Of a stretch of DNA of 53,541 nt, positions 42,092 to 50,660 are shown in pieces. The DNA is from Sphingomonadales bacterium CG_4_10_14_3_um_filter_58_15 (GTDB taxonomy: Bacteria; Pseudomonadota; Alphaproteobacteria; Sphingomonadales; Sphingomonadaceae): contig PFJE01000171.1 in NCBI GenBank assembly GCA_002783865.1, forward strand, positions 1 to 53,541, read 5' to 3'. A program made the translations under genes and the position numbers. Position 1 is the stretch's first letter; each line of letters begins with the position of its first letter. The notes beneath the pieces are model-generated. The model made no database searches, was not told where the DNA came from, and saw only the letters and a program-made list of their open reading frames with translations.

Positions 42092-43177
42092 TTATTGATC
42101 CTTGATCAGATCATGGATGAAACGCAGTTTCTCGGAAATCCGCGATGACAGGACAAACGGATAATAGTCCCGGTTACCCATCGACCGGTTCATCGCATTC
42201 ATCGCGACCGTGATCGGAACCCAATGGTCGAGCAGCTGTTCATGGTCAGACACGTGATACGGGTCGGCCAATTGAATGAGCGGGGGTGCTCCGATTTCCG
42301 AAGGCTGTGGGTTCAGGCCATAGGCAAAGGCGGTTTCCAGACCGCTGACCATATGCAGATAATGGGCCCATGTTTCCGCGAAATCCTCCCAGGGGTGCGC
42401 AGTGGCGTAAGCGCTGACGAAGGACTTTTGCCAGTCCGCCGCCGGGCCATTGTCATAATATGTCCCCAGGGCTTCCGAATAGTCGCGCCGTTCATCGCCG
42501 AAAAGGTCGCGGAACCGGTCGATCACGCCCGGTTTGTCGACCAGCTGATCCCAGTAATAATGACCCACTTCATGCCGGAAATGGCCAATCAATGTGCGAT
42601 AGGGCTCACCCATCATCGTGCGATTCTTCTCCCGGATTGCATCGTCGGCCTCGGCGATGTTGATGGTGATCAGGCCATTGTCATGCCCGGTCATGACGCG
42701 CTTTTTCTCGCCGTTTGGCAGCAGCCGATCGCCCAGCAATTCGAATCGAAGGGATCCTTGCGAGACATCGGGGTCCGCCGCCAGCGGCAGGTTCAATTTG
42801 ATCAGCGCATAAAATAGCCGGCGTTTGGCACGCTCCAGCCTGTTCCATTGTCGCCGCTTTTCCAGATCGGAAATGTCAGGAATCTTGGTGGTGTGGAAAC
42901 AGCTCTGACATAATGAGCGTTCGCTGACATTGTCGCACAGCCAGTTGCATCCGATCAGGTCCCGGTTTGCACAAAGCGAATATCCAAGCGTCCCGATCGT
43001 CGCACCAGCATCGGCTGCCGGGAACGCCAGCATTTCATCCTGCGACGGCGAATAGGCCAGATTTGCGGAACACGCCAGGCATGTCGCATTGTTGAAATGG
43101 ACTTGGTTCCCGCAATCGAGGCATAAAAATCTGCGCAAAACAATCGGCCTTTTTGGTAAGAAGATAGGATATTCCAA
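42092..43177 (-). CDS. Putative zinc-binding metallopeptidase with N-terminal zinc ribbon
   Basis: FLCLDCGNQVHFNNATCLACSANL zinc ribbon; GHFRHEVGHYYWDQLV (HExxH); DFAETWAHYLHM. Confidence 0.88.
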   Translation of the reverse strand: MEYPIFLPKRPIVLRRFLCLDCGNQVHFNNATCLACSANLAYSPSQDEMLAFPAADAGATIGTLGYSLCANRDLIGCNWLCDNVSERSLCQSCFHTTKIPDISDLEKRRQWNRLERAKRRLFYALIKLNLPLAADPDVSQGSLRFELLGDRLLPNGEKKRVMTGHDNGLITINIAEADDAIREKNRTMMGEPYRTLIGHFRHEVGHYYWDQLVDKPGVIDRFRDLFGDERRDYSEALGTYYDNGPAADWQKSFVSAYATAHPWEDFAETWAHYLHMVSGLETAFAYGLNPQPSEIGAPPLIQLADPYHVSDHEQLLDHWVPITVAMNAMNRSMGNRDYYPFVLSSRISEKLRFIHDLIKDQ

Positions 43178-43284: not shown

Positions 43285-44247
43285 CTAAACCCCCAGCGCC
43301 GCCGCCGCTTCCCGGATCCGCTTCGCTTCCGCGCCATCATTCTTGAACGCTTTGAGGCCCCGATCCAGCGCCTGTTTCGCCTGCACGGTCTGCCCCAATT
43401 GCATGCGGCTGCGGATCAGCATGATCCAGCCGTTGGCGTCCTTGGGATTGGCCTGCAGCCGCTTGTCGAGACCGTCGACCATATTGGCGATCATCGCTTC
43501 CTGTTGGCCGGGCGGCAGGGCGGCGGCTTCTTTCATCTGTTGGCTGCTGGGGCCGGGAATTGCGGCGGTGGCGACGGCCGGTCCGTCGGTCGAGATACCG
43601 CCGGTCGGCGCAGCGGCCGCAACCTTGGCGAGGCGGTCGGCAACATCAATGCCTTCCTTCTCCGCAACCTGTCCGATTACCCGGCGGATATCAGCGGCAT
43701 AGGGCGCGTCGGCGGGCGTGTCGGCGAGCAGCGCGAACCAGTCATTGATCGCGCCCTTGTGATCGCCGGATATGTCCTTCTGCACCGCCAGGAAATAGCG
43801 CGCGCGCGCATCCTTGGCATCATGTTTCAGCGCATTGCGAAAGGCAGCGGCAGCATCTGGCGGGACTTGCGTGCCATCGCTCGCCATCACCAGCGCCTCG
43901 CCCAGCATCGACCAATATTCCGCATTGTCGGGATCGAGCGTGGTCGCCCGCTTCATCGCGGTCGCCGATTCGGCGAATTTCTGCGTTTCAAAATAGCTCC
44001 ACCCCAGCATTCGCCAGCTTTCCGCGTCGTCGGGGTTTTCCTGCAGCTTTTTCTCCAGCCCGGCGATGACTTCATCGACGCTGGGCGCCGCTTCGCTTTC
44101 GGTTCCGGCAACCGGCATGGTCGCAGCGTCCTCGGCATTCATGCTGCGGTAGATCTGCACCGCGATCGCCCCGAGCGCCAGTAAAGCTGCGAGAATCAAA
44201 GCGATACGGCTGATATTCATCGATGAAGCGGCTTTTGCCATGGTCAA
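43285..44247 (-). CDS. TPR protein resembling CcmI/CcmH C-terminal (cytochrome c maturation-type) proteins
   Basis: N-terminal TM; EVIAGLEKKLQENPDDAESWRMLGWSYFETQKFAESATAMKRATTLDPDNAEYWSMLGEAL; LAVQKDISGDHKGAINDWFALLADTPADAP. Confidence 0.75.
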   Translation of the reverse strand: MTMAKAASSMNISRIALILAALLALGAIAVQIYRSMNAEDAATMPVAGTESEAAPSVDEVIAGLEKKLQENPDDAESWRMLGWSYFETQKFAESATAMKRATTLDPDNAEYWSMLGEALVMASDGTQVPPDAAAAFRNALKHDAKDARARYFLAVQKDISGDHKGAINDWFALLADTPADAPYAADIRRVIGQVAEKEGIDVADRLAKVAAAAPTGGISTDGPAVATAAIPGPSSQQMKEAAALPPGQQEAMIANMVDGLDKRLQANPKDANGWIMLIRSRMQLGQTVQAKQALDRGLKAFKNDGAEAKRIREAAAALGV

Positions 44248-44482: not shown

Positions 44483-46933
44483 GTGTCGGACAAGTTCAGA
44501 GTAGTCATTATCGGGTCCGGACCAGCGGGCATGAGTGCCGCTGGGCGTGCCGCACAGCTGAAGCTGAAGCATGTGTTGCTGGAAAAAACCGATCATCTTT
44601 CCGACACCATCTATAAATATCAAAAGGGCAAGCATGTCATGGCGACGCCGAGCCAACTGGTGCTGCGCTCTGATATGGATTTTGACGCGGGCAAGCGCGA
44701 GGCGATTCTCGAGACATGGGATGCGCAAACCGCCAGCCACGGCGTCAATGTCATGTACAAGGCCGAACCGGTGAAGATCGAGGGTGATGAAGGCAATTTC
44801 ACCATCACCCTGAAAAACGGCGAGACGGTGCAGACCGAGACGATCGTGATGGCGATTGGTACCCAGGGCAATCCCAACCTTTTGCGTTGCCCCGGCGGTG
44901 ACAACAAGCTGGTGCAATATCAACTCGACGATCCCGGTGAATATTATGACGAGCATATCACCGTGATCGGATCGGGTGATGCGGGTATCGAGAATGCACT
45001 TGGTCTCGCCGCCGACGCGGCGCAGAATAATGTCGTCACGATTCTCAACCGCTCGGCGGATTTTGCCCGCGCCAAGAAGGCCAATGTCAAGCTGCTGATG
45101 GAAGCGGGCGAACAGGGCAAGATCATCGTCCGCAACGAGACCACCCCGGCCGAGGTCAGGGATGGTGAACTGGTGCTGGAAACCCGCGATGGTCAGGAAA
45201 CCATAAAATGCGACCGGATCATCGCTCGTATGGGCAGCGCCCCGCCGCGCAAATTCGTCGAGGAATGCGGCATCGAATTTACCAGCGACGACCGTGAGGC
45301 CTATCCCAAACTGTCGCCAGCGTTCGAGAGCACCAAGAAGGGCATCTATGTCATTGGCGCGCTCGCCGGCTATCCGTTGATCAAGCACTGCATGAACCAG
45401 GGCTATGACGTGATCGAATATATCAACGGCAATACTGACCTCAAGCCTGCCGATGAACCGATCCTCGAAGCGAAATTCGGCGACTTGCCCGGAAGCCGGT
45501 CGGTTGATGAATGGCTCGAATTTTTTCGTTCCAATGTGACCATTCTCAACGACCTGTCTCCGCTGCAGATGCGCGAATTCATGCTCGACAGCGAGCCGCA
45601 AAGCTATGAACGGGGCGAAGTGATTTTCGAGAAAAATGATCCGGGAAGCTCGCTGTTTGCCATTGCTCAGGGTTCGGTTGCAGTGGAAATCAATGCCGAT
45701 GACCCGTCGATCACCGTGCCGATCGAGCAGGGTTCGATCTTCGGCGAGGTTGGCCTGATTTCCGGTCGACGGCGCGGCGCTACGATCAAGGCGGCGGAAG
45801 ATGTCATCGTGGTTGAAATTTCGCGCACCGCGGCGCTCAAATTGCAGGCGTCGGTCCCGGCGGCAAAACGCCGGATCACCCAGATTTCGACCGAGCGGCA
45901 ATTGCTGCAGATGTTCGGGTCCGGCCTGACCAAGGAAGATATTGCCGAAGTCGTCGAATCCAGCGAGATCATCAATGTCCGGGCCGGAGAGACGATTATC
46001 GAGGAAGGCGGCGAGGGCAATGACATTTATGTCATCCGGGTCGGCTCGATGGTGGTCGAGAAACAGATTGGCGGCAAGCCGGTGTTTCTGTCCTATCTGC
46101 CGGCCGGCTCCTATGTCGGTGAAATGACCCTGATCGCTGGCGGCTATCGCACCGCGACGGTGAAGGCAGCGATCAAGTCGGAAGTCATCAAGATTAGCGG
46201 CGATGCCTTCAAGAAAGTGCTCGATGCCCATCCCGACCTGATGCGCAAGGCGAAGAAGGAAATGGCCGAGCGGCAAGATATCAACGCCTTTGTCGAAGCG
46301 AAAAAGGACAGTTTCTCGGGCATTGTCGACATGTATTCGGGGATCGCCAATTTCCTCGTCGAGAATGGCATCGGCGAAGCCACCGACGTGCTGCTGATCG
46401 ATGAAAATCTGTGCGTCGGCTGCGACAATTGCGAGAAGGCCTGCGCCGACAGCCATGAGGGCCTGTCGCGGCTCGACCGCGAAGCAGGGCGCACTTATGC
46501 CCATCTGCACGTGCCGACCAGCTGCCGCCACTGCGAGCATCCGCATTGCATGTCCGACTGTCCGCCCGATGCGATTCACCGTGGCCCCGATGGCGAGGTG
46601 TTTATCGACGACAGCTGCATCGGCTGCGGCAATTGCCAGCGCTACTGCCCCTATGGCGTGATCCGCATGGACAAGGTGCCGCCGAAGAAGCCGGGGCTGC
46701 TCAGCTGGCTGTTCTTCGGCGCCGGGCCGGGGCCGGGCGAGCCCGACAAGGCCTGGGCCAAGAAGCACAGCGACCCCGCGGTGGAGAAGCCCAAGAAGGC
46801 GATCAAGTGCGACATGTGCGCCGGGATCAAGGGCGGTCCGGCCTGCGTGCGCGCCTGTCCGACCGGGGCGGCGATCCGCGTGGCACCGGAAGAATTTCTC
46901 ACCGTCGCCAAGCTTGAAGCGGAGGATGTATGA
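44483..46933 (+). CDS. Fusion protein: FAD/NAD(P)-binding oxidoreductase + two cNMP-binding domains + polyferredoxin (four predicted [4Fe-4S])
   Basis: VVIIGSGPAGMSAAG and ITVIGSGDAGIENALG; GSIFGEVGLISGRRRGATIKA and GSYVGEMTLIAGGYRTATVKA; CVGCDNCEKAC, CRHCEHPHCMSDC, CIGCGNCQRYC, CDMCAGIKGGPACVRAC (16 Cys). GTG start. Confidence 0.92.
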   Translation: MSDKFRVVIIGSGPAGMSAAGRAAQLKLKHVLLEKTDHLSDTIYKYQKGKHVMATPSQLVLRSDMDFDAGKREAILETWDAQTASHGVNVMYKAEPVKIEGDEGNFTITLKNGETVQTETIVMAIGTQGNPNLLRCPGGDNKLVQYQLDDPGEYYDEHITVIGSGDAGIENALGLAADAAQNNVVTILNRSADFARAKKANVKLLMEAGEQGKIIVRNETTPAEVRDGELVLETRDGQETIKCDRIIARMGSAPPRKFVEECGIEFTSDDREAYPKLSPAFESTKKGIYVIGALAGYPLIKHCMNQGYDVIEYINGNTDLKPADEPILEAKFGDLPGSRSVDEWLEFFRSNVTILNDLSPLQMREFMLDSEPQSYERGEVIFEKNDPGSSLFAIAQGSVAVEINADDPSITVPIEQGSIFGEVGLISGRRRGATIKAAEDVIVVEISRTAALKLQASVPAAKRRITQISTERQLLQMFGSGLTKEDIAEVVESSEIINVRAGETIIEEGGEGNDIYVIRVGSMVVEKQIGGKPVFLSYLPAGSYVGEMTLIAGGYRTATVKAAIKSEVIKISGDAFKKVLDAHPDLMRKAKKEMAERQDINAFVEAKKDSFSGIVDMYSGIANFLVENGIGEATDVLLIDENLCVGCDNCEKACADSHEGLSRLDREAGRTYAHLHVPTSCRHCEHPHCMSDCPPDAIHRGPDGEVFIDDSCIGCGNCQRYCPYGVIRMDKVPPKKPGLLSWLFFGAGPGPGEPDKAWAKKHSDPAVEKPKKAIKCDMCAGIKGGPACVRACPTGAAIRVAPEEFLTVAKLEAEDV

Positions 46934-47082
46934 GCCTGTCTCGTTCCGTTCAATCCGTTGGTCATCCTGCCGTTCGTGCTGAGCTTGTCGAAGCATGGCG
47001 TCTTGCCAGCTGTCCTTCGACAGGCTCAGGACGAACGGCGGGGAGAAACGCCGAATCACTTCCAGCAGGGGGACCCGTCTAA
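46930..47082 (+). CDS. 50-aa small ORF carrying the palindromic repeat, joined stop/start to both neighbours
   Basis: ATGA overlap with upstream stop (46930-46933) and TAATG overlap with downstream start (47080-47084). Translation MSLSRSVQSVGHPAVRAELVEAWRLASCPSTGSGRTAGRNAESLPAGGPV. Below the ORF-track size cutoff; whether translated is unknown. Confidence 0.35.
   Translation: MSLSRSVQSVGHPAVRAELVEAWRLASCPSTGSGRTAGRNAESLPAGGPV
46970..47038. repeat. REP-like imperfect palindrome
   Basis: CCGTTCGTGCTGAGCTTGTCGAAG ... CTTCGACAGGCTCAGGACGAACGG; 22/24 complementary arms. Antisense reading gives the familiar FVLSLSKD...LRQAQHER string seen when this repeat is translated. Confidence 0.9.
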
Positions 47083-47963
47083 TGGCCAGCAACGCCATCA
47101 CCGCCCCGCCCGCCCGCAAGAAGGTCGCGATGCATGACGGTTTCCTGAAACATGCCGGCTACCGCTGGCTGAAGATTTCATCGGCGCTCATGCTGATCTG
47201 CATCGTCAGCTATATCTTCATCGACGTCTCGCCGCGCCACAATGGCGGCAGCTGGTATGGCTATACGCTGGGCACCATCGGCGCGCTGCTGATTCTCTGG
47301 CTGACCATGCTGGGCGTGCGCAAGCGGGCGATGACGCCGGGCCAATGGTCGCTCAAGGCCTGGACATCGGCGCATATCTATCTCGGGCTGAGCCTGATCG
47401 TCATCGGCACGCTGCACACCGGCTTCCAGCTCGGCTGGAACATCCACACCGCTGCCTATATATTCATGATGATCGTGATCATTTCCGGCATCGTCGGCAT
47501 CTATTTCTATGCAACCATTCCCAAGGCGCTGTCCGACAATCGCGACGAGATGACCGAGACGGAAATGCTCGAAAATCTGCGGTCGCTCGACCGGCAATTG
47601 CACGAGGCGGCGCAGCCCCTGTCGGCGGAACATGCCACTCTGGTGCTGCAGTCGCTCGAGCAGGATCCGTTCGGCGGCGGCTTCTTCCAGCGGATTTCCG
47701 GTCGCTATCCGGATTGCGCCACCCGGCAGGCGCAGGCGGACCTGCGCCGCGAGCGCGCCTATCAGCCGAAAATGGGCGGCGATGATCCGCTCGACAAGGT
47801 CGATGCCCTGCTCGAGAAAAAGGAAGCGACGCTGGCCCGGGTTCGCCGCCATCTCAAGCTCAAGGCGATGCTGCAGGTCTGGCTGTTCATCCATGTGCCG
47901 ATGACCTTCGCTCTGATCGCCTCGCTGACCGCGCATATCATCAGCGTGTTTTTCTACTGGTAG
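47082..47963 (+). CDS. Multi-TM membrane protein, candidate b-type cytochrome / electron-transfer membrane subunit
   Basis: About five TM segments with candidate axial His residues: TSAHIYLGLS, IGTLHTGFQ, WNIHTAAY, WLFIHVPMTFAL, LTAHIISVFFYW. Confidence 0.7.
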   Translation: MASNAITAPPARKKVAMHDGFLKHAGYRWLKISSALMLICIVSYIFIDVSPRHNGGSWYGYTLGTIGALLILWLTMLGVRKRAMTPGQWSLKAWTSAHIYLGLSLIVIGTLHTGFQLGWNIHTAAYIFMMIVIISGIVGIYFYATIPKALSDNRDEMTETEMLENLRSLDRQLHEAAQPLSAEHATLVLQSLEQDPFGGGFFQRISGRYPDCATRQAQADLRRERAYQPKMGGDDPLDKVDALLEKKEATLARVRRHLKLKAMLQVWLFIHVPMTFALIASLTAHIISVFFYW

Positions 47964-47978
47964 GATGGAGAGCCCAGC

Positions 47979-49784
47979 ATGACCTTCATCGTCCGCCAGA
48001 TAGCGACCACCGCCGACGGCCGGGAAATTATCCGGTCCAACCCGTTCCCTGCCGATGAGATCGGCATTGGTCGCAGCACCACGAATGCGATCCACCTGCC
48101 CGATCTTGCGGTCAATCCGGACCATGCCACGATTCGCAAGCGCGACGACGGCCAGATCATTGTCGAAAGCAGCTCCGGCCAGAATTTCACGCTCGATGGC
48201 AAGCACCGGATTTCGGTGACGATCAATCCGTCTGCCGGCGCAGAACTGGGCTTCGGCGGCCATGTCATTATCGTCAGCGAAGAGGGCGATGATATCGTCC
48301 TGACGGTCAAGCGGGTCGAGGCCCTGTCCGATTCCGCCGAAATCCGCAGCGAATCGACACTCTACACGCTCAAGGGGCTGCTTCCGGGCAAACGGCTCAG
48401 CGCTTGGGGTTTCATCGCGCTGGTGCTCGCCGCGTTTCTGGTATGGCCGATCTATACATGGGCAACCTGGCGCGGGGTTGAGGAACGGCCCGACCAGTTT
48501 TACGCCGACACCATGTGGTCGTCCGGCCCGCTGAGCAGTGCGCATCATGCGCTGGAGAAAGATTGTCAGGCCTGTCACGTCGATGCGTTTGTCACGGTGA
48601 CGGACAACACTTGTCTCACCTGTCATGAAGAGGACGCGCATGACCATGCGGCGAAACCGCGTCTGCTGACCGCACGCGGCGGACCGGAAGGGTTGGAGGT
48701 GATTGGCGCGACCTTTGCGGCGGCCTTCAACAAGCCGCCGGGCAGGTGTGTCGAATGTCACAGCGAGCATGAAGGCAGCGGTGCTATGGAACCGACGGCG
48801 CAAAAATTCTGCGCGGATTGCCATGATGGGATGGATAGGCGCTTGACCGATACAAAACTGGAAAATGCATCGGACTTTGGCATATCCCATCCGCAGTTCC
48901 GGCCGGCCGTGCTGGTGACCCCGGGAGGCAAAAACCCGCCGCGCAAGCGTGTCTCGCTTGATCAGAAGCCCACCGAAAATAATGGCCTCAAATTCCCCCA
49001 TGATGTGCATTTGTCAAAGACCGGCGGTGTCGCGCAAATGGGTCGGCGACTGTCGACAACCTATGGCTTCGGCGATTCGCTGGTTTGCAAGGATTGTCAC
49101 ACAGCCGATCCGAAGGGTGTGCGGTTTGAACCGGTCGATATGAAGGAAGACTGCAGCATGTGCCACAGCCTGGCGTTCGACGAGATCGGCGGCACTGTGA
49201 GGACGTTGCGGCACGGCGAACCGGCAATGGTCCAAGCCGATCTCAGAGCTTATTATCGCTCCACCCGCCCGACCCGGCCGATCAATCTCGGCGGTATGAA
49301 GCGGCGGCGTCCGGGGACGGACAACGAGGCTCGGGTCGCCAGCGATTATGCCCGCGCCGTCCAGTTCCGCCCGAGCCGCGCCAATATGGCGATCAGCCAG
49401 GTCTTCTCGCGCGGCGGCGCCTGCTATGACTGCCATGGCGTCACCCCGCCGACCGCCCGTGGCCGGGTAGATTATGGCATCATGCCAGTGACCCAGACCG
49501 ATCGCTATATGCACAATGGCTGGTTCAGCCATGAGGCGCATAACGACGAAAAATGCACCAGCTGCCACAACGCACCGGCATCCAAGAGCGCCGAAGATCT
49601 GCTGTTGCCCGGGATCAAGACCTGCCGCGAATGTCATGGCGGCGAATTCCAGAAAGCGTCGGATGTGCCCTCGACCTGTGCGATGTGCCATGACTATCAC
49701 GCCGATGATGGCGCGCCCTGGCTGATCAGGGAAGAACAGAAAGACAAACAGCAAAAGCCGGATAAAAAGATTGCGCGTCGATAG
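47979..49784 (+). CDS. FHA domain - TM - decaheme cytochrome c fusion
   Basis: N-terminal FHA-like GIGRSTTNAIHLPDLAVNPDHATIRKRDDGQIIVES; TM SAWGFIALVLAAFLVWPIYTW (aa ~141-161); ten CxxCH: CQACH, CLTCH, CVECH, CADCH, CKDCH, CSMCH, CYDCH, CTSCH, CRECH, CAMCH. Confidence 0.92.
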   Translation: MTFIVRQIATTADGREIIRSNPFPADEIGIGRSTTNAIHLPDLAVNPDHATIRKRDDGQIIVESSSGQNFTLDGKHRISVTINPSAGAELGFGGHVIIVSEEGDDIVLTVKRVEALSDSAEIRSESTLYTLKGLLPGKRLSAWGFIALVLAAFLVWPIYTWATWRGVEERPDQFYADTMWSSGPLSSAHHALEKDCQACHVDAFVTVTDNTCLTCHEEDAHDHAAKPRLLTARGGPEGLEVIGATFAAAFNKPPGRCVECHSEHEGSGAMEPTAQKFCADCHDGMDRRLTDTKLENASDFGISHPQFRPAVLVTPGGKNPPRKRVSLDQKPTENNGLKFPHDVHLSKTGGVAQMGRRLSTTYGFGDSLVCKDCHTADPKGVRFEPVDMKEDCSMCHSLAFDEIGGTVRTLRHGEPAMVQADLRAYYRSTRPTRPINLGGMKRRRPGTDNEARVASDYARAVQFRPSRANMAISQVFSRGGACYDCHGVTPPTARGRVDYGIMPVTQTDRYMHNGWFSHEAHNDEKCTSCHNAPASKSAEDLLLPGIKTCRECHGGEFQKASDVPSTCAMCHDYHADDGAPWLIREEQKDKQQKPDKKIARR

Positions 49785-49811
49785 CGCAACCGGCCCAAGG
49801 GGAGAGCGTCC

Positions 49812-50660
49812 ATGCTAATGGCGCAGATTACCGATATTCATCTGGGGTTTGACCCGGACAATCCGGCGGAATTCAACCGCAAGCGGCTCGATCAGGCGAT
49901 CAAGACGATTTGCGCGATGACGCCGCAGCCCGATCTGCTACTGGCCACCGGCGATCTCGTCGATCGCGGTGATCAGGAAAGCTACCGCCGGCTGGAAAAT
50001 GCCTTGTCCGTCGTCCCGTTCCCGGTGCACATGTGCATGGGCAATCACGATCTGCGGGCACCGTTCCGCAAACAGTTCCCCAAGGTGCCGACGGCGGACG
50101 GCTTCGTCCAATATGAGGTCGATACGCCGGCGCTCCGCTTGCTGATTCTCGATACTTTGGAAGAGGGCCGGCATGGCGGCGCCTTCTGCGAAACCCGCGC
50201 GGCCTGGCTTGCGGCAAGACTGACGGAGAAAACCGACAAGCCGACGATCCTGATCCTGCACCATCCGCCGGTGGAAAGCGGCATCGAGTGGATGACCACC
50301 CACCCGGACGAGCCATGGGTGACCCGGCTCGCGGATACGGTTGCCGGGCATGATCAGGTCAAGGGTATGATCACCGGCCATTTGCATCGCAATATTTCAA
50401 CCTGGTGGGGCGATATCAGTCTGGCGGTTTGCGCCTCGACCGCGCCGCAGGTCGCTCTCGATCTAAAGCCCATTGATCCCGACCATCCCGATGGCCGCAA
50501 CATGATTGTCGCCGACCCGCCAGCGATTGCCCTGCATTATTGGAATGGCCGTCAGCTGGTCAGTCATTTCGAAAATGCAGAGGAACATGTCATGCTGGCC
50601 CGCTATGACGAGACTCTGCAGCCGCTGGTGCGCGCGCTGCTCGACGAGCGACCGGAATAG
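49812..50660 (+). CDS. Calcineurin-like metallophosphoesterase, CpdA-type (class III cyclic-nucleotide phosphodiesterase-like)
   Basis: QITDIHLG, ATGDLVDRG, MGNHD, LILHHPPV, GMITGHLHR: full metal-binding motif set of the family; 27-nt gap from the decaheme gene with AAGGGGAG SD. Confidence 0.88.
   Translation: MLMAQITDIHLGFDPDNPAEFNRKRLDQAIKTICAMTPQPDLLLATGDLVDRGDQESYRRLENALSVVPFPVHMCMGNHDLRAPFRKQFPKVPTADGFVQYEVDTPALRLLILDTLEEGRHGGAFCETRAAWLAARLTEKTDKPTILILHHPPVESGIEWMTTHPDEPWVTRLADTVAGHDQVKGMITGHLHRNISTWWGDISLAVCASTAPQVALDLKPIDPDHPDGRNMIVADPPAIALHYWNGRQLVSHFENAEEHVMLARYDETLQPLVRALLDERPE

Follow-up and report, generated by a model that had tools for sequence, protein, structure and literature searches.

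Electron conduits of the predicted PCC4 class consist of a porin, cytochromes with four, five and ten hemes and an inner-membrane protein (IMP), and in one subgroup an iron-sulfur (Fe-S) gene of family pfam13247 lies upstream of the IMP gene; a joined Fe-S/IMP gene is known from O. beijerinckii (PMC5566968). The IMPs of PCC3 and PCC4 span the membrane five times, with W-x3-H-x13-H motifs on transmembrane (TM) helices TM3 and TM5 and an SGxxG motif on TM4, and He et al. 2017 propose that they hold two b-hemes, as does the cytochrome b of bc1 (PMC5566968). PCC4 has been modelled with electrons running inward, and it is present in iron oxidisers and water-filter bacteria (PMC5566968). The locus considered here lies on contig PFJE01000171.1 of Sphingomonadales bacterium CG_4_10_14_3_um_filter_58_15, analysed over its 53,541 nucleotides (the window), and comprises four co-directional open reading frames (ORFs), g1 to g4, at 44483-50660 on the + strand. 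With a probability of roughly 0.6, this operon encodes the part of a PCC4-kind trans-envelope (extracellular) electron conduit that sits at the inner membrane and responds to a second messenger. Its genes and their parts are the following.

44483..46933, + strand: g1, 816 aa; NAD(P)/FAD oxidoreductase domain, two cyclic nucleotide (cNMP)-binding domains and four [4Fe-4S] motifs
45599..45844, + strand: first cNMP-binding domain (cNBD) of g1, aa 373-454; phosphate-binding cassette FGEVGLISGRRRGAT; the motif is also present in distant relatives
45959..46231, + strand: second cNBD of g1, approximately aa 493-583 (limits approximate); cassette VGEMTLIAGGYRTAT
46412..46858, + strand: four [4Fe-4S] motifs of g1, aa 644-792; DmsB/NrfC-type Fer4_11 region
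47082..47963, + strand: g2, 293 aa; putative five-TM inner-membrane di-heme cytochrome b-like protein, helices present in the AlphaFold2 (AF2) model
47979..49784, + strand: g3, 601 aa; FHA-fold domain (aa 1-112), TM helix (aa 136-164) and decaheme cytochrome c part (aa 196-571)
49812..50660, + strand: g4, 282 aa; class III-type metallophosphoesterase (SpdA/CpdA-like), Pfam Metallophos

The inner-membrane module

Every signature of the PCC3/PCC4 IMP is carried by g2: W94-x3-H98-x13-H112 lies in TM3, SGxxG (residues 135-139) in TM4 and W267-x3-H271-x13-H285 in TM5. Across 42 sequences the four His never vary, nor do the SGxxG glycines of TM4; both W-x3-H-x13-H motifs recur in every distant g2 listed, and the protein is predicted to bind two b-hemes. 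The 10-heme cytochrome that adjoins the IMP in PCC4 has its counterpart in g3, and the pfam13247 Fe-S gene upstream of the IMP has its counterpart in g1 through the Fer4_11 region; the 4-heme and 5-heme cytochromes and the porin of the same cluster are missing from the window. On motif, context and heme counts, g1-g3 makes up the inner-membrane module in a conduit of the predicted PCC4 type. An alphaproteobacterial locus (L174; working labels in L, G and C denote loci, genomes and contigs) displays the exact PCC4 gene content, with g1, g2, 10-heme, 4-heme, 5-heme and porin-like genes. A preliminary description of this DNA had been unable to name any such system; the module matches PCC4, a class that was itself predicted bioinformatically (PMC5566968).

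The g1 protein lacks a TM helix and is cytosolic. Its NAD(P)/FAD domain (aa 5-307, Pfam Pyr_redox) is YpdA/TrxR-like, with a score of 122 vs a cut-off of 340, and its 16 ferredoxin-type Cys, all invariant, form cubane motifs at residues 644-654, 681-693, 712-722 and 776-792. Both cNBDs conform to the cassette pattern G-E...R-x-[AST], the Glu and Arg being kept in both domains of the 14 aligned family sequences and of the distant g1 proteins scanned.

The third protein, g3 (Pfam FHA and Cytochrome_C7/c3), carries ten CxxCH motifs, all of them invariant in 35 sequences. Its N-terminal domain, set on the cytosolic side by the TM helix, is modelled with good confidence as an FHA domain and finds FHA domains as its top Foldseek matches; by sequence, g3 matches solved structures only in FHA domains and short pieces. 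The AF2 model of the decaheme part is of low confidence, contains no hemes and was left uninterpreted. Within the FHA domain, G31, R32 and H49 are invariant. Control by phosphothreonine through this domain is doubtful because the Ser that contacts it (position 46), kept in 1 of 35 sequences, is lost in the other 34; docking of g1 or a different partner, independent of phosphorylation, is a possible role of the domain.

As for g4, the motifs of its superfamily (DxH, GD, GNHD, HHP, GHxH) are all present, and hydrolysis of cAMP by this protein is plausible. At the level of single proteins, much of the preliminary description stands: the ORF list and Pfam domains agree with four same-strand genes, Pfam and the motif count with its make-up of g1 (an NAD(P)/FAD module, two cNMP-binding domains and 16 ferredoxin Cys), and the single TM helix and ten CxxCH with its TM-anchored decaheme cytochrome. 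Its FHA domain is upheld as a fold and not in the phosphothreonine role given to it, and its CpdA-type phosphodiesterase keeps the calcineurin-like Metallophos family and scores better as SpdA-like (140 bits) than as CpdA-like (85 bits).

Conservation, partner operon and adenylyl cyclase

Conservation was assessed in 121 genomes of the family, in 289 genomes of the class Alphaproteobacteria and in named loci, the latter being the best 80 of at least 564 confirmed relatives in a species-level genome collection. Within the family, g1 occurs in 41 genomes, with g2 and g3 adjacent in all 41; all but G130 and G088 (39 genomes) also have g4 next to the block, which contig ends divide in G173. G079, a 67%-complete genome and the 42nd that is cluster-positive, contains g3 and g4 and yields no g1 match. 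In the genus of the window, g3 is found in 32 of 33 genomes, the remaining one being 82% complete and split into 400 contigs. The synteny check that the preliminary description had proposed returns the full order g1-g2-g3-g4 in 71 of the 80 best named loci, seven of the nine exceptions stopping at a contig end, and an all-or-none pattern in the family. Full-length g1 is also present in 26 of the 289 class-sample genomes, further families included, and in four genomes from other classes of the phylum; outside the family, g2 and g3 lie beside g1 in nearly all loci read. In two of these four other-class genomes (gammaproteobacterium-like), g1 and g2 are fused into one ORF of ~1,120 aa (L193:3052-6423 and L196:7850-11206), a fusion which argues that g1 and g2 act as one unit. 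The g3 downstream of the fused gene in L193 and L196 has nine CxxCH instead of ten. Distance correlations, 0.84-0.90 among g1, g2 and g3 and 0.69-0.78 with a divergent CcmI-like neighbour, mostly reflect shared ancestry.

A second operon accompanies the block in Sphingomonadaceae and encodes a tetraheme cytochrome c, an HbpS-like protein, a porin-like protein and an LVIVD-decaheme protein; many genomes have it beside g4 in convergent orientation, and others have it at another place. L152 and L157 (the latter from Chakrabartia godavariana) join both operons into a single co-directional run, g1-g2-g3-g4-4-heme-...-porin-LVIVD-decaheme. Most of the other Alphaproteobacteria read have, downstream of g1-g2-g3, genes for an HbpS-like protein, a ~610-aa porin-like protein and an LVIVD-decaheme protein of ~1,250-1,400 aa with ten CxxCH and LVIVD repeats, and a cytochrome-c554-type tetraheme gene is nearby in some of these loci. 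Among the 121, the genomes with the LVIVD-decaheme gene are precisely the 42 that are cluster-positive, and 20 of the 289 class genomes have it, all 20 of them g1-positive. By comparison with PCC4, the partner operon of the window's family retains a 4-heme cytochrome and has a different porin-like gene; no 5-heme cytochrome was seen in these operons, and the LVIVD-decaheme and HbpS-like proteins stand in its stead. Judging from its size, its position and its C-terminus (F/Y), the ~610-aa protein would be an outer-membrane porin. In the host genome (2.69 Mb, 89% complete), where the window is contig C55, the partner operon is represented on another contig.

Contig C98, L206:10874-15067, - strand: LVIVD-decaheme gene, 1398 aa; remaining operon cut by the contig end

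The end of C98 before this gene encodes the C-terminal 31 residues of the porin (94% identical), and the complete partner operon is present in the congener G025. An isolated four-gene system was rejected once the partner operon had been found: the preliminary description covered one half, and the outer-membrane/periplasmic half is this second operon.

The link to cyclic nucleotides rests on a class III adenylyl cyclase (PF00211), which is carried by all 42 cluster-positive family genomes and by 8 of the 79 negative ones. Three genera are mixed, namely those labelled g37 (G071 with the cluster, G160 without), g52 (G168 with, G086 without) and g58 (G174 with, G092 without); according to the lists of positives, G160, G086 and G092 are without g1-g4, the LVIVD-decaheme gene and the cyclase alike, and this joint absence counts as evidence that does not depend on one ancient split. 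Several Sphingomonas loci have a cyclase gene on the strand of g1, upstream of it and one or two genes away. Its catalytic motifs (SDLEGFT or TDLEGFT, DKFVGD and N..AR), which cover the metal Asp, the adenine-selecting Lys and the transition-state Asn/Arg, are kept in the host genome and in relatives. As to g4, it adjoins a cyclase in G149, G088 and G130, and it occurs without the g1-g3 cluster in four genomes, all of which have a class III cyclase. Together, the conserved cassettes and the co-occurrence of cyclase and g4, the three mixed genera included, bear out the proposed tie to cyclic nucleotides and support a system within which the messenger would be made, sensed and removed. Near the conduit operon of G025 (contig 1, 20001-40000; L227), a CHASE2-type cyclase is found with a CHAT-TPR protein, an FhaC-like transporter of the two-partner secretion type and a ~3000-aa protein; similar layouts are seen in L209, L211 and L221.

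Among the matches listed, the nearest named relatives of the window locus belong to the Parasphingorhabdus/Sphingorhabdus group of Sphingomonadaceae. In the window, 15 nt separate g2 from g3 and 27 nt separate g3 from g4. The junction of g1 and g2 abuts or overlaps in many relatives and instead holds a repeat here; further features flank the operon.

46970..47038, no strand: palindromic intergenic repeat between g1 and g2, two inverted copies, 0 expected by chance
43285..44247, - strand: CcmI/CycH-like TPR cytochrome-c-biogenesis gene (Pfam TPR_CcmH_CycH), divergent from and adjoining g1
42092..43177, - strand: putative metallopeptidase with zinc ribbon and Peptidase_Mx, beside the CcmI-like gene

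Translation through the repeat yields a spurious N-terminal stretch in front of g2 (MASCQLSFDRLRTNGGE...); g2 most likely starts at 47082 and not at 46995, since the alignment with relatives begins at 47082. The small repeat-bearing ORF with which the preliminary description had filled this gap was thus rejected as a gene. A homologue of the CcmI/CycH-like gene is found in 77 of the 80 best named loci, mostly divergent and just upstream of g1, and its product may serve the g1-g4 system specifically in cytochrome c maturation; no homologue of the metallopeptidase gene was found across the same 80 loci.

Proposed electron path and competing explanations

In the proposed path, NAD(P)H and the g1 FAD would exchange electrons, which would pass from the FAD to the four [4Fe-4S] clusters of the same protein and on to the b-heme pair of g2, where exchange with quinone may also occur; they would then reach the ten periplasmic c-hemes of the membrane-anchored g3 and, through the tetraheme cytochrome, the porin and the LVIVD-decaheme cytochrome of the partner operon, an external or envelope partner. 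Binding of cAMP, supplied by the co-inherited CHASE2-class III adenylyl cyclase, to the cNBDs of g1 would open or close this passage, and g4 would lower the messenger; since they sit between the FAD and Fe-S domains along the g1 chain, the cNBDs are in a position to act as such a gate. The NAD(P)H/FAD module tips the balance slightly towards outward flow, with reduction of an acceptor outside the cell or in the envelope. A transmembrane electron-transfer chain had already been proposed in the preliminary description, and the conserved order, the g1-g2 fusion, the di-heme b motif and the ten invariant c-heme motifs speak for it. Direct binding of cAMP or cGMP to the electron-input flavoprotein as a switch of the envelope current, with cyclase and phosphodiesterase co-inherited and in aerobic sphingomonads, is a more tentative proposition, to which we give somewhat less than even odds. 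To our knowledge, sphingomonads are not generally recognised as electroactive.

Several observations weigh against this reading. The electron path, the physical assembly, the cofactor loading, the gating by cAMP and the substrate of g4 have all been inferred. The binding of two hemes by g2 rests on the motif because a Foldseek search with the model gave no significant match and the Pfam match, to Ni_hydr_CYTB, is weak and under its cut-off. The porin-like protein has no Pfam, NCBIfam or PDB match, and by sequence no meaningful solved structure was found for g2, the porin-like protein or the LVIVD-decaheme protein. The score of g4 reaches neither the SpdA model (140 bits, cut-off 400), which takes its name from an enzyme acting on 2',3'-cyclic nucleotides, nor the CpdA model (84.6 bits, cut-off 225). 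The association of cyclase and cluster (Fisher p about 1e-24) is calculated with kinship ignored, kinship being addressed only by the three mixed genera, and the cyclases of the 8 cluster-negative genomes count against it; in G142, which lacks the cluster, a cyclase of this type is encoded near a neighbourhood with a giant protein, a setting like the CHAT/two-partner-secretion one of G025. Given both genomes, the cyclase may serve other targets too.

The opposite direction of flow would make the locus a device for electron uptake, in which electrons from an external donor (Fe(II), Mn(II) or reduced organics) run inward via g3 and g2 to quinone or NAD(P)+. The hosts of g1-g4 are mostly aerobic and the class of g2 resembles quinone-reactive cytochrome b, both of which would suit uptake, as would the inward model of PCC4 and its presence in iron oxidisers and water-filter bacteria (PMC5566968). 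However, the likeness of the g1 NAD(P)/FAD module is to reductases that consume NAD(P)H (YpdA/TrxR-like), and no energy input of the kind needed to drive uphill reduction of NAD(P)+ was found; uptake is judged a minority explanation. Less probable still is the reduction of metalloids or other soluble oxyanions at the envelope, in the manner of selenite or tellurite, a role in which the LVIVD-decaheme protein would be the terminal reductase and not a wire to solids. Its best NCBIfam match is ExtM of a Geobacter selenite/tellurite operon, and the ext genes likewise combine porin, multihemes and cytochrome b (PMC5877670), but the match scores 62 bits vs a cut-off of 800, and the ext cluster uses a Rieske protein with cytochrome b and has no g1-like gene (PMC5877670).

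The regulatory part of the proposal has its own competitors. The pair of cNBDs, called from sequence only, could be structural or bind another ligand, and the co-occurrence of cyclase and phosphodiesterase would then reflect CRP-like transcriptional control of the same lifestyle. There is precedent for such control in Shewanella, where cAMP-CRP and CpdA act on respiration transcriptionally, but a purely structural role would not require the conserved cassette Glu and Arg, and we regard this alternative as rather unlikely. Similarly, g4 could be a general 2',3'-cNMP or other phosphoesterase, incidental to the operon, as its higher score for SpdA and its presence in four genomes without the cluster would suggest; the class III cyclase in all four of these genomes and the adjacency of g4 to a cyclase in G149, G088 and G130 make this the weaker option. 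That unrelated same-strand genes merely cluster by chance, as independent neighbours with no joint function, is improbable in the extreme and is ruled out by an order conserved across genera and classes, by the gene fusion and by near-perfect co-occurrence.

Should the preferred reading of g1-g4 as a messenger-responsive PCC4-type module be correct, a large group of bacteria common in soil, water and the sea would possess an unrecognised trans-envelope electron conduit. We know of no earlier conduit in which electron input is controlled by direct binding of a second messenger instead of by transcription, and this would, as far as we know, be the first one gated in this way. The PCC4 parts list would also become fuller, with an inner-membrane module, two alternative outer-membrane halves and the synthesis and removal of a messenger, and culturable hosts would be on hand for what has so far been a predicted class.

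Relation to described systems

The Mtr, Mto and Pio porin-cytochrome conduits follow the same plan of inner-membrane donor, periplasmic decaheme cytochrome, porin and surface multiheme cytochrome. Unlike in these systems, the g3 cytochrome is membrane-anchored and bears an FHA domain, and in the searches made neither the porin-like protein nor the inner-membrane protein showed a family match to Mtr, Mto or Pio. The Geobacter extHIJKLMNOPQS cluster (porin ExtI) shares with the present system multihemes, a porin and an inner-membrane cytochrome b, and its likeness to the LVIVD-decaheme protein is a weak similarity of ExtM, far under the cut-off; it comprises a Rieske Fe-S protein and a bc-type cytochrome b, and no FAD, cNBD or FHA component or g1-like gene is described in it (PMC5877670). 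Among single proteins, YpdA/thioredoxin-reductase-like flavoproteins belong to the same fold family as the g1 FAD/NAD(P) half, but g1 differs from them in the fusion to cNBDs and four [4Fe-4S] clusters. Class III cNMP phosphodiesterases of the SpdA/CpdA type have the metal-binding motifs of the superfamily in common with g4, but g4 differs from the curated members of both in scoring under both cut-offs.

From PCC4, as published, the present system differs in the FAD and two cNBDs of g1 and in the associated cyclase and phosphodiesterase; the term "cyclic nucleotide" is absent from the main text of He et al. 2017 (PMC5566968). In the literature searched, no description was found of a system combining cNBD, FHA and multiheme components, nor of a g1 built from cNBD and FAD modules, a link to cyclase and phosphodiesterase, the LVIVD half or the distribution in sphingomonads. 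What is new by comparison with these systems is the presence of tandem cNBDs with intact phosphate-binding cassettes, together with the near-obligate co-occurrence of a class III adenylyl cyclase.

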